From: Halalkalicoccus sp. CG83
GTDB lineage: Archaea > Halobacteriota > Halobacteria > Halobacteriales > Halalkalicoccaceae
Direction: 5' to 3'
NCBI RefSeq assembly: GCF_037081715.1
Contig: NZ_JAZDDH010000001.1
Span: 1 to 64,000, forward strand
DNA: 64,000 nucleotides
Shown: positions 2,726 through 31,514 of the stretch, in pieces
Numbering within the stretch: position 1 is the first letter of the stretch
Layout of the letters: each line of letters starts with the position of its first letter
The notes under the pieces: model-generated
Databases searched by the model: none
Seen by the model: only the letters and a program-made list of their open reading frames with translations
Told to the model about the DNA's origin: nothing
Program-made: the position numbers and the translations under genes

Positions 2726-3315
2726 GACGGGGTCGGACGAACGGACACGAGGACGGGTATCGATCGAGCCCCGCCGCGTTCGTTCAACTCCTCCACCGAG
2801 CGGTTGCGGATCTGCCCTGTTCATCGGGGCTGGGAAGCACTACGGTGAATCGTATAAACCGAAATTTCCCTGTGAAATTCCTGTCGTTTCCACATACGTC
2901 ATCCGTTTGAGATTGTCCGTCATTTATCCATTTCCCTCGCGTCGGATCGCTCTTCCCGGATGGGAACTATCCGTCGTTCGGGGGTTTTCCGCTCTCTCCC
3001 CGAGTTCTGTCATTTGGGTAACTATAATCGGGTGGAGTTCGTCGATCGTAACACTGGGTGATCCCAGTATGGACCCCCACACGTTCCATCGGACCGCCCG
3101 GGGTGCCTCTGACGTCGAACACGCTGGGAGTGGATGAGCTTCCGTACCTGCTCTCCGGAATCCCGGGCGTTCCGCGGAAGCCGGCGTCGACGCCGGCTTC
3201 GGGGTCCGGCGAGGGTCTGCTTGACTCGTTCCCCTCGTTCGTACCGAGACCGCGAGCGACGGTGCCGTGGCGCCGGTTCCCAAACCGATTTACCGCCGGT
3301 GGTCGATCCTCGGAC
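2726..3315. other. 590-base intergenic stretch with no credible gene
   Basis: Frames crossing this stretch show no haloarchaeal coding character. Bases 2840-2935 are clearly richer in A+T than the surroundings. Visible structures are a CTGGG/CCCAG hairpin at 3053-3066 and a perfect 22-base palindrome at 3178-3199 (centre GTCGAC). A TATA-like CGATTTACC at 3286-3294 probably serves the cupin gene. The stretch could be a decayed mobile-element footprint, but no transposase remnant is recognisable. Confidence 0.6.
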
Positions 3316-3660
3316 ATGGAACCCGTCGACTTCGACGAGGCCGAGACGTACGAACCCGAGGAGGGCTGGGCGCGCCGCGCTCTCGCTGGCAGCGACCGAT
3401 TTACCTTCGAGTGGTTCGAGAAGCCGTCCGGACATAGCTCGCCGATGCACGACCACGAGAACGAGCAGGTGTGTCTCTGTCTCGAAGGTGAGCTCACGGT
3501 CCACACCGAGGACGACTCGGTAACGCTCTCGGCGTACGACTCGGTATGGCTCGACGCCTGGGAGTCCCACCGCGTCGAGAACGAGGGCGACGAGCGGGCC
3601 GTCGGACTCGACGTGTTCGCGCCCGGTCGATCGTTCGACTTCTGGACCGACCGGGAATGA
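3316..3660 (+). CDS. Small cupin-domain protein
   Basis: A 114-residue single-domain cupin. Motif 1 is clear: HDHENE inside GHSSPMHDHENEQVCLC, giving the His-x-His-(x3)-Glu metal site. Motif 2 is represented by DSVWLDAWESHRVEN. Small cupins bind a divalent metal and act as sugar or acid isomerases, dioxygenases or sensors; the sequence does not say which. It overlaps the next gene (FAH family) by four bases as ATGA, so the two are translationally coupled and may act on the same substrate. A TATA-like CGATTTACC lies about 25 bases before the ATG. Confidence 0.85.
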   Translation: MEPVDFDEAETYEPEEGWARRALAGSDRFTFEWFEKPSGHSSPMHDHENEQVCLCLEGELTVHTEDDSVTLSAYDSVWLDAWESHRVENEGDERAVGLDVFAPGRSFDFWTDRE

Positions 3661-4502
3661 GCCCGAACACGACCTACCTCGCTCGGAGCGTCGACGGCAG
3701 GCCGTTGCTCGGCGACGAGACCGGGTTCGTCCCGCTGGCGGCAGCCGTCCCCGAACTGGAGAGCGTCGAGGCGGCCCTCCCCGCGGCGGCCGCGGGCGAA
3801 CTCCCCGACCCGGCCGCCGCGACCGCTCGGCGAGTCCCCTCCGAGGAGATCGCGTTCGGCCCTCCGATCCCGCGCTCGTCGCTCGGAAAGCTCTGGGGGA
3901 TCGGCCTGAACTACGAGGAACACGCGGGCGATCTCAACGAGGAGCGCCCCGAGGAGCCCGCGAGCTTCATGAAGCCGCGGACGGCTGTGGCGGGCCCCGG
4001 CGGGCCGATCCGCCTCCCGCCCGAGGAGCGAACCGGGCGCGTCACCGCCGAGGCGGAGCTCGCGGTCGTGCTCGGACGGAACTGTTCCGATCTGGAAGAA
4101 GGGGAGGTCGACGACGTGGTCGCGGGCTACCTGCCGGTGATCGACATGACCGCCGAGGACGTACTGGAACGGAACCCGCGCTTTCTGACGCGGGCGAAGA
4201 GCTTCGACAGCTTCCTCGTTCTCGGTCCCGCCATCGCCGTCCCCGACTCGCCGCCCGAGTTCGGCGATCGCGAGGTTCGAACGATCATCAACGGCGAGGC
4301 CATCGCCGAGAACCGGACGAGGAACATGCTGTTCTCACCGCGCGAACTCGTCGCCTTCCACTCGGGGGTGATGACGCTCGAGCCCGGCGACGTGATCAGC
4401 ACCGGCACGCCCGGTGCAGGCGTCATCTCGCCGGGTGACCACGTCCGAACGGAGGTGGACGGGATCGGTTCGGTCGTCGCGGACGTCGTCGGGCGACGCT
4501 AG
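3657..4502 (+). CDS. Fumarylacetoacetate hydrolase family protein
   Basis: A 281-residue FAH-family enzyme. The characteristic LWGIGLNYEEHA opens the catalytic domain, acidic metal ligands lie in EAELAVVLG and DMTAED, and the C-terminus carries FSPRELVAFHSGVMTLEPGD and STGTPGAG. Family members cleave or isomerise beta-diketo acids in catabolism of aromatic compounds (FAH, HpcE/HpaG types). The N-terminal 70 residues are a short cap region. It starts inside the last codon of the cupin gene (ATGA overlap). The stop overlaps the convergent DUF502 gene by four bases. Substrate unknown. Confidence 0.9.
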   Translation: MSPNTTYLARSVDGRPLLGDETGFVPLAAAVPELESVEAALPAAAAGELPDPAAATARRVPSEEIAFGPPIPRSSLGKLWGIGLNYEEHAGDLNEERPEEPASFMKPRTAVAGPGGPIRLPPEERTGRVTAEAELAVVLGRNCSDLEEGEVDDVVAGYLPVIDMTAEDVLERNPRFLTRAKSFDSFLVLGPAIAVPDSPPEFGDREVRTIINGEAIAENRTRNMLFSPRELVAFHSGVMTLEPGDVISTGTPGAGVISPGDHVRTEVDGIGSVVADVVGRR

Positions 4503-5128
4503 TCGTCGGCCGCCGGCCGTCCCTCCCGGTCGTCGTCGCGCTCGCCCTCCTCGTAGACCGGGATCGACGTTCGCCGGTCGCGCCGGTCGCCGAACCCGCC
4601 GCTGAGCAGCCGCGTCATCGCCTCCTCGACGCTCTCGTCGGTCGGGATCGCCGCCTCGGGTTCGACCTCGATCACGTAGCCGCTCGTGACGTTCGGCGCC
4701 GTCGGCATGAACAGCTGTAGCCTGCCGTCGTCGGTGCGTTTTCCGGTCTTGAAGGCGGTCATGTAGACCCCGTTCCACGTTCGGACCCGAACTGGCTGTC
4801 TGAGTTCGGCGTCGCCCGACACCGCGGTCTCGACGGCGAACTGCGAGGCGTTGTAGACGACGCGAAGCCCCGGCACGCGGTTGATCACGTCGGCGAGCCG
4901 TACGGTGACCAGCGCGCCCGCCGCGGTTCGCATCGCGATCCCCGCCAGTACCACCGCCGCGGCGAACACGACGAGAGTCGTGACCACGCGGAGCAGCGGA
5001 TCCTCGATGACGCCGACCAGCGGGAGGCCGGCGATGAACAGAAACAGCCAGGAGACGGCATAGAGGCTCACGAGCACGGGCACCAGGATGATCAGCCCGC
5101 TGGCGAGGTCCCGTTTCCAGTACGACAC
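4499..5128 (-). CDS. DUF502 family membrane protein
   Basis: A 209-residue protein with two N-terminal membrane helices (about residues 10-35 and 45-68), followed by a soluble domain with NRVPGLRVVYNASQ and MTAFKTGKR and a charged disordered tail. This arrangement is diagnostic of DUF502, a widespread prokaryotic membrane family of uncertain function. The stop overlaps that of the convergent FAH gene, so the two share a termination region. Confidence 0.85.
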   Translation of the reverse strand: MSYWKRDLASGLIILVPVLVSLYAVSWLFLFIAGLPLVGVIEDPLLRVVTTLVVFAAAVVLAGIAMRTAAGALVTVRLADVINRVPGLRVVYNASQFAVETAVSGDAELRQPVRVRTWNGVYMTAFKTGKRTDDGRLQLFMPTAPNVTSGYVIEVEPEAAIPTDESVEEAMTRLLSGGFGDRRDRRTSIPVYEEGERDDDREGRPAADD

Positions 5129-25454: not shown

Positions 25455-25685
25455 GGTAGGCGGCGAACCACCAGTTGCGAGCCGTTGTAACGGACTGGTC
25501 TCGGGTTCCACCGGGACGGACCCTGCGTGTACTTCCGATTGCAGTCCTGGGCTCGTACTTGGCCCCTCTTGCGAGGCAGTTTTCCCAGAGGCTCGCGCAC
25601 TCCAGTACTCGCTGGAACGCTGGCGGGCTTATCTGCCGTGTTCGGGATGGGTACGGGAGTTGCCCCGCCGCTATGGCCGCCTTAA
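25455..25685 (-). rRNA. rrf: 5S rRNA, about 231 nt, with internal insertion
   Basis: The 5' part (from 25685, TTAAGGCGGCCATAGCGG) follows the haloarchaeal 5S consensus through CCCGTACCCATCCCGAACAC and GTACTGGAGTGCGCGAGCC to CTCTGGGAAA. The expected 3' end, GGTTCGCCGCCTACC, which pairs with GCGGC of the 5' end to close helix I, does not follow. It appears about 108 bases later, at 25469-25455. The gene is therefore about 231 nt instead of about 122. Halococcus morrhuae 5S rRNA is the established precedent, also 231 nt with an insertion near this site. Ends are assigned by pairing and may be off by a few bases. Confidence 0.88.
25472..25581 (-). other. Structured insertion inside 5S rRNA
   Basis: About 105-109 extra bases lie between the GGGAAA and GGTTCGCC segments of 5S, bounded by a direct repeat AACTG (25577-25581 and 25472-25476). 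The insertion can fold: hairpin CCTC-GCAA-GAGG (25576-25565, a GNRA loop), stem CGAGCC/GGCTCG (25550-25555 with 25478-25483) and stem GGACTG/CAGTCC (25542-25547 with 25492-25497). The preserved pairing suggests it is kept in the mature RNA rather than spliced; no bulge-helix-bulge site is evident at its edges. Confidence 0.75.
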
Positions 25686-30822: not shown

Positions 30823-30919
30823 TTCGAAGCCCGGTCGGCTTCGAGGTCGTGCCCCCATGCCATCAGGTCCGCGACTGCGAGACGCGGTGAGCGTCCCGCG
30901 ATCACTGTGTTTCTTTCTC

Positions 30920-30992
30920 CGCATCACATCCGAGTGCCCTTAACCACTTAAGGGCGTCGGATGCAGGTCGTCGCCGGAATCGCGTCCCGGCG
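30920..30992 (-). promoter_or_regulatory. rRNA promoter repeat copy (P4)
   Basis: A 73-base unit identical to that at 31091-31163. Its core is a near-perfect dyad, CATCCGACGCCCTTAA-GTGG-TTAAGGGCACTCGGATG on the minus strand when read in pieces, with CTTAAG as TATA element. The TATA element thus lies on one arm of the dyad. Confidence 0.75.
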
Positions 30993-31020
30993 TGGCCTCC
31001 TGCGGATCTGGCAGTAGGAC

Positions 31021-31047
31021 GGGATCGAGGATAAACCCATCGATCCC
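31021..31047 (-). promoter_or_regulatory. rRNA promoter within dyad (P3)
   Basis: GGGATCGA and TCGATCCC flank a GGGTTTATCC TATA box (minus strand), giving an eight-base inverted repeat around the core. Confidence 0.65.
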
Positions 31048-31090
31048 GTTGAGGATCGCGGGCCTCGTCCAGTCCCATTCCGTCTTGCTT

Positions 31091-31163
31091 CGCATCACAT
31101 CCGAGTGCCCTTAACCACTTAAGGGCGTCGGATGCAGGTCGTCGCCGGAATCGCGTCCCGGCG
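31091..31163 (-). promoter_or_regulatory. rRNA promoter repeat copy (P2)
   Basis: Base-for-base copy of the 73-base P4 unit, 171 bases upstream of it. Exact identity indicates recent duplication or gene conversion of an active promoter. Confidence 0.75.
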
Positions 31164-31180
31164 CCGCCTTCGTTGCGTAT

Positions 31181-31215
31181 GATCCGAACGCCCTGATACT
31201 GATAAGGGCGTCGGA
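31181..31215 (-). promoter_or_regulatory. rRNA distal promoter (P1)
   Basis: Minus strand TCCGACGCCCTTATCAG followed by CAGGGCGTTCGGA: the same dyad design as P2 and P4, but with CTTATC as TATA element. Confidence 0.65.
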
Positions 31216-31300
31216 CTCGGAGCGATTTCCGACGGAGTCGGAAACCGTCCCGCCGGGAGTCGCCCCGGCCATCGTTCGCATTCATTCCGATGGCAGGGGA

Positions 31301-31310
31301 ACTGATAAGC
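31301..31310 (-). promoter_or_regulatory. Possible outermost rRNA promoter (P0)
   Basis: GCTTATCAGT on the minus strand resembles the P1 TATA element. No flanking dyad, so it is weaker evidence than for the others. Confidence 0.35.
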
Positions 31311-31514
31311 ACGTCGTTCCATCGACGCTTCGTCCATCGATATCACGGAACTCCGTCGCGCGTGTCGCGCGGGTGGAGGTCGAGGAGTCATCCCCGGCGT
31401 GGTGCCGACGGTCGCCTCGAGTGATCCCGCGCACGTGCCCGTGCGCTCGCGAAGACGGTAACTATGTCGAAGTACGCTGTCGCTGCCGGAGCCCCTACCC
31501 CACGGCGCGTTCGG

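Follow-up and report, generated by a model that had tools for sequence, protein, structure and literature searches.

Structure of the 5S rRNA gene and its operon

The window, meaning the whole 64,000-nucleotide stretch of Halalkalicoccus DNA analyzed here, contains an rRNA operon in the normal haloarchaeal order of 16S, tRNA-Ala, 23S, 5S, a terminator-like hairpin, and tRNA-Cys. The 16S gene (positions 30609-29136, minus strand) is the sole one in the genome, and tRNA-Ala (29011-28940) lies between it and the 23S gene (28735-25816, minus strand). The 5S gene (25685-25455, minus strand) is followed by a hairpin of 13 pairs and TTCTTC (25441-25412, minus strand), which is terminator-like by consensus match only, with 0.4 such matches expected by chance. 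Further downstream is tRNA-Cys (25334-25259, minus strand), a conserved neighbor that also follows the 5S gene of the sister genus G066, where the insertion site described below is empty. Upstream of the 16S gene (30912-31316), a direct repeat of 87 nt (95% identity at a spacing of 171) is part of a succession of partial copies built around ATCCGA...CTTAA...AAGGGCGTCGGA. Multiple rRNA promoters are usual in haloarchaea, and these repeats probably represent such promoters.

The 5S gene is 231 nt long, as delimited by helix I and alignment with 30 homologues and the empty site of G066. As the first-pass annotation had proposed, the gene is interrupted. The 5' part of the core spans 108 nt through loop E inclusive (25685-25578), and the 15-nt 3' part (GGTTCGCCGCCTACC, 25469-25455) stands beyond an expansion segment of exactly 108 nt (25577-25470), all on the minus strand. 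That annotation had correctly given the total length, the 3' part, and the distance of about 108 bases between the two parts; the end of the 5' part, placed there at about 25582, is corrected to 25578 by the alignment with G066. Since a G stands at both junctions, the insert boundary is ambiguous by one base, with 25576-25469 as the other placement. Alignment with the homologues and the empty site puts the insertion between loop E and the three-way junction, at core positions 104.1/105, and the lengths of the segment (~108 nt) and of the whole gene are those of the Halococcus type. The 5' core is identical to that of Halococcus G011 at 107 of 109 positions and to that of G066 at 98 of 108.

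Helix I had been predicted to close only with the distal 3' segment. This holds: the distal segment and the 5' end form seven standard pairs in a row (A-U, then GGCGGC/GCCGCC), whereas the proximal end chosen by Rfam forms only 2 of 10. The Rfam 5S scan that the first-pass annotation had suggested returned a weak match of 74.3 bits (25684-25566), whose 3' end is misplaced and mispaired inside the insert; comparable searches give 87-106 bits for haloarchaeal 5S genes without an interruption. Expanded archaeal 5S genes are prone to misannotation (Stepanov & Fox, PMC7812874), and the 3' end assigned here by Rfam is that error. Our own covariance model (R1) scores the expansion segment at 137.3 bits.

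The genome assembly (3.64 Mb in 6 contigs, 97.09% complete) contains one 5S gene, one 16S gene, and one rRNA operon. An uninterrupted 5S gene elsewhere in the genome, named beforehand as an observation that would speak against the interrupted one, was not found in this assembly. Since the same search recovers the 5S genes of 11 control genomes, Haloferax volcanii among them, a second ordinary 5S gene in the assembly should have been seen. The small missing part of the assembly, spread over its 6 contigs, leaves room for a normal 5S gene and hence for the window gene to be a pseudogene. However, the gene is located in the only rRNA operon, its core is intact, helix I closes, and in five congeners the expanded copy is the sole detected 5S, so that a pseudogene is extremely unlikely.

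Fold of the expansion segment

The alignment comprises 30 different inserts that occupy one and the same site in 5S. Covariation and conservation confirm a V-shaped fold consisting of a short hairpin and a long arm of five helices with a conserved tip. In this alignment, which was fitted to the model structure and favors that fold, 96.3% of the cells are paired and 20 of the 33 pairs are changed on both sides. None of 500 shuffles matches these pairing and covariation values, and pairing falls to 45-49% when the partners are slid by one column. A similar result emerges when 26 sequences are aligned by MAFFT without structure (95.5% paired, two-sided changes in 17 of 33 pairs), and RNAalifold on its own recovers most of these helices. 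The thermodynamic fold of the whole 231-mer, which barely beats shuffles (z = -1.64), was left out of the evidence.

The short arm (25576-25565, minus strand) is the hairpin CCUC-GCAA-GAGG, in which all cells are paired and two of the four pairs are changed on both sides. The long arm (25563-25470, minus strand) comprises helices 2-6, with GCCA.GU/AC.UGGU, CGAGCC/GGCUCG, GGACUG/CAGUCC, and UCGG/CCGA below the tip, and 18 of its 29 pairs are changed on both sides.

Archaeal rRNA introns exist, and the insert could in principle be an intron or other intervening sequence whose removal leaves a normal 5S RNA of ~123 nt; the joined core indeed still closes helix I when folded. However, the boundaries of the insert lack a bulge-helix-bulge motif, and a permissive scan yields loose candidates that are not conserved between lineages. 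Moreover, the homologous segment of Halococcus morrhuae is kept in its 5S RNA and is visible in its 50S subunit (PMC7812874, PMC7530397). Excision is highly improbable on these grounds.

Two candidate sources of the insert were rejected. The local alignment with the 5S core, relevant to self-duplication, scored 12, a value equalled by 1990 of 2000 shuffles, and 142 of 200 shuffles scored as high as the match with 16S/23S. No other Rfam family was found in the insert up to E 10, with the exception of a sub-threshold riboswitch match over the core.

The conserved tip

Column conservation delimits a 27-nt tip, AGUACACGCAGGGUCCGUCCCGGUGGA (25533-25507, minus strand). Its mean is 1.81 bits per column, compared with 1.19 elsewhere in the segment, and 0 of 10000 column shuffles reach 1.81. 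The outer stem of the tip reads CAC/GUG in 27 sequences, CGU/GCG in both f2 sequences (G007 and G023), and GAC/GUC in G356; since these changes are paired, the stem is supported. The flanks, AGUA C...G GA, resemble a bulged-G/sarcin-ricin (loop-E) internal loop, which would be followed by a hairpin. The tip motif was absent from the rest of the window, with up to 8 mismatches allowed, and from viral contigs. Strong covariation together with a nearly invariant tip indicates that the segment is selected as RNA.

The distal stem-loop was previously described as the most conserved part and as a candidate functional domain (Stepanov & Fox, PMC7812874). We lean toward the tip binding something in trans. 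Its role is not universal, since many haloarchaea live without the segment and two lineages, G186 and G356, have tips that depart from the near-invariant sequence. The expanded 5S genes with these altered tips (L125 of G356, Halomarina, 4459-4577, AGUAGACCAGGGUUCGCCCCAGUCGA; L124 of G186, 3287-3407, AGCCCACGCAGGGCUUGUCCCGGUGGA) are natural variants useful for probing the tip. Where the expanded form is the only 5S RNA, the 27-nt tip offers a concrete target for a partner search.

Distribution across Halobacteriales

A covariance-model census found the segment in 41 of 392 Halobacteriales genomes and 12 of 95 genera, distributed over six families (f1, f2, f4, f6, f10, and f13), where a genome without a match may have either an empty site or no assembled 5S. 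BLAST with the insert detected it in 37 of the 392 genomes. Among 393 genomes drawn from the phylum and searched under stricter filters, no match lay outside Halobacteriales. The uninterrupted 5S was read directly in 13 genomes or records.

Within Halalkalicoccus, the GTDB genus of the window, which includes Halalkalicoccus paucihalophilus, a 5S gene is detectable in six of seven members, and all six, five congeners among them, are expanded at the same site. Alignment with Halococcus 5S genes, another check proposed at the outset, shows an insert 91-95% identical and at the same site. Together, these two observations mean that the insert is not a chance feature. The first-pass annotation had left open a related genus or a separate gain. 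The former stands, since the insert is homologous to that of Halococcus; the shared site, length, and fold, together with this homology, exclude the separate gain of an unrelated insert.

The carriers extend beyond the four genera surveyed previously, to Halocatena marina and H. pleomorpha; to Actinarchaeum halophilum and the YIM strains A00010 and A00013; to Halorutilus salinus together with the MAGs Ods01 and Ods02; and to the MAGs QS_3_64_16, QS_4_69_34, and QH_8_64_26. The published RNAMotif pattern needed TCGCCGCC (Stepanov & Fox, PMC7812874). At this place f10 reads TCGTCGCC and f2 reads TCGCTGCC, and because these letters differ, the pattern was unable to detect either lineage. The two f2 loci, L122 (G023) and L123 (G007), represent a deep Halobacteriales lineage; their genomes are small (0.9-1.1 Mb) and incomplete, and their expanded 5S genes are the most divergent.

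A patchy distribution and the flexibility seen by cryo-EM (PMC7530397) are what functionless, neutral padding might show. Against this, 20 of the 33 pairs carry compensatory changes and the tip is nearly frozen among lineages that are up to 23% apart in 23S, and the deepest branches carry the segment. Neutral padding is therefore improbable.

Inheritance, loss, and proposed exchange

When the 23S tree is rooted on other members of the phylum, the expanded lineages Halorutilaceae, f2, g21, and Halomarina/Halocatena branch near the base, and most uninterrupted lineages lie in the crown. G017 (f12, uninterrupted) falls with Halorutilaceae. Equal-cost parsimony on the sampled tree, with G013 entered as uninterrupted without its 5S having been read, requires 5-6 changes, and ancestral presence is one step cheaper than absence (5 versus 6). 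Presence in the Halobacteriales ancestor is weakly favored, in a manner that depends on sampling.

The sister genus G066 has an empty site ahead of the same tRNA-Cys. On 23S, Halalkalicoccus and G066 are sisters inside the crown (support 99), and a clade of Halalkalicoccus and Halococcus is rejected (AU p = 0.0045). Between Halalkalicoccus and Halococcus, the insert differs by 6.1% and the 23S by 11.6%, a ratio of 0.53. All other between-group pairs give 1.27-2.87, and the one other low between-genus ratio, 0.77, belongs to Ods02 and Halorutilus, an f10 pair within a family. The window insert is identical to that of Halococcus G077 at 103 of 108 positions and to that of the congener H. jeotgali at 101 of 108. 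Unlike the insert, the 23S-5S spacer and the 3' flank of the window gene are nearest to those of congeners. An insert tree places Halalkalicoccus together with Halococcus, g43, and g51 at moderate support (82/93).

Since the sister genus is empty and the insert is no farther from Halococcus than from congeners while the 23S is, the simplest reading is that the 5S gene, or part of it, was exchanged between the Halococcus and Halalkalicoccus lineages, and these sequence comparisons make such an exchange somewhat probable. Vertical inheritance by both genera with loss in G066 would dispense with transfer. A published protein tree unites Halococcus with Halalkalicoccus (Stepanov & Fox, PMC7812874), and losses are likely in other lineages anyway. 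However, the rejection of this grouping by 23S, an insert half as divergent as the 23S for this pair alone among the between-group pairs, and a spacer and 3' flank without that closeness make purely vertical descent rather unlikely. The 23S tree is not to be equated with the species tree, because rRNA genes recombine. We retain 5S exchange as the preferred reading.

Several other loci are of note. Two Halococcus dombrowskii plasmids, NZ_CP095007.1 (L155, 261 kb) and NZ_CP095009.1 (L162, 351 kb), carry 16S-23S-5S operons with an expanded 5S, and both operons adjoin nucS and a TATA-binding-protein gene; rRNA operons on such plasmids are a possible vehicle for 5S exchange. In Halodesulfurarchaeum (L025 of G043, 1383-1610), a 5' core of the uninterrupted type, GGAAGTTAAG, is joined to a mostly Halococcus-like insert and to a 3' arm like that of Halomarina/Halocatena, GTCGACGCC. 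This mosaic appearance suggests recombination inside the 5S gene. On pNG700 of Haloarcula marismortui (L161, NC_006395.1), a 5S-like stretch at 4001-4103 has a nitroreductase gene, not 23S, just upstream and is apparently a stand-alone 5S.

Functional implications

We are confident that the window carries a functional 5S gene of the known, expanded Halococcus type. In H. morrhuae, all of the 5S pool consists of the long type, and the mature RNA keeps the segment (PMC7812874, PMC7530397). In its 50S subunit, the segment projects at a four-way junction and leaves the core undisturbed; the outer part is flexible by cryo-EM, and no bound factor was reported (PMC7530397). In our reading, the window gene is the sole 5S gene at work in a Halalkalicoccus species. 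Its segment folds as an independent two-armed domain and, by analogy with H. morrhuae, would be retained in the mature RNA and project from the large subunit without disturbing the core. The long arm may serve as a spacer that presents the tip on the solvent side of the central protuberance, where a protein or RNA acting in trans may dock onto it. The segment appears to be old within Halobacteriales, with losses in numerous lineages, and the copy in Halalkalicoccus would share a recent ancestor with that of Halococcus through 5S exchange.

We regard the segment as a ribosomal element that is probably old, under selection, and exchanged from time to time. We propose, more tentatively and at somewhat less than even odds, that the arm is an ancestral Halobacteriales ribosomal module that predates the Halorutilus split, was lost many times, was regained in Halalkalicoccus and Halodesulfurarchaeum by 5S exchange, and binds a factor on the ribosome's outer face through its nearly invariant tip. 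The gene adds one more example of an oddity that was already published, and the wider distribution matters more: a segment formerly viewed as a four-genus feature spread by transfer is now also found in the deepest haloarchaeal branches.

Comparison with known expanded 5S rRNAs

A 231-nt 5S rRNA was reportedly described in H. morrhuae by Luehrsen et al. in 1981. The H. morrhuae 5S agrees with the window gene in its 231-nt length, 108-nt segment, insertion site, fold, and single 5S type (Tirumalai et al. 2020, PMC7530397), and the two inserts are identical at 98 of 108 positions. Retention in the mature RNA is demonstrated in H. morrhuae, whereas for the window gene, which has its own operon spacers, we infer it. 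Halalkalicoccus is already on the list of Stepanov & Fox (2021, PMC7812874) with the same structural type, and horizontal transfer was proposed there. The presence of a Halococcus-type 5S in this genus is thus published, and our analysis adds a wider and deeper distribution, covariation, and the conflict with 23S. Their survey covered four genera; Halocatena/Actinarchaeum, Halorutilus, the deep f2 lineage, and several others are additional here. The bacterial 5S expansions of the Thermoanaerobacterium type (positions 52-53) are likewise large structured insertions in 5S, but differ in site, length, and, as published, structural type.
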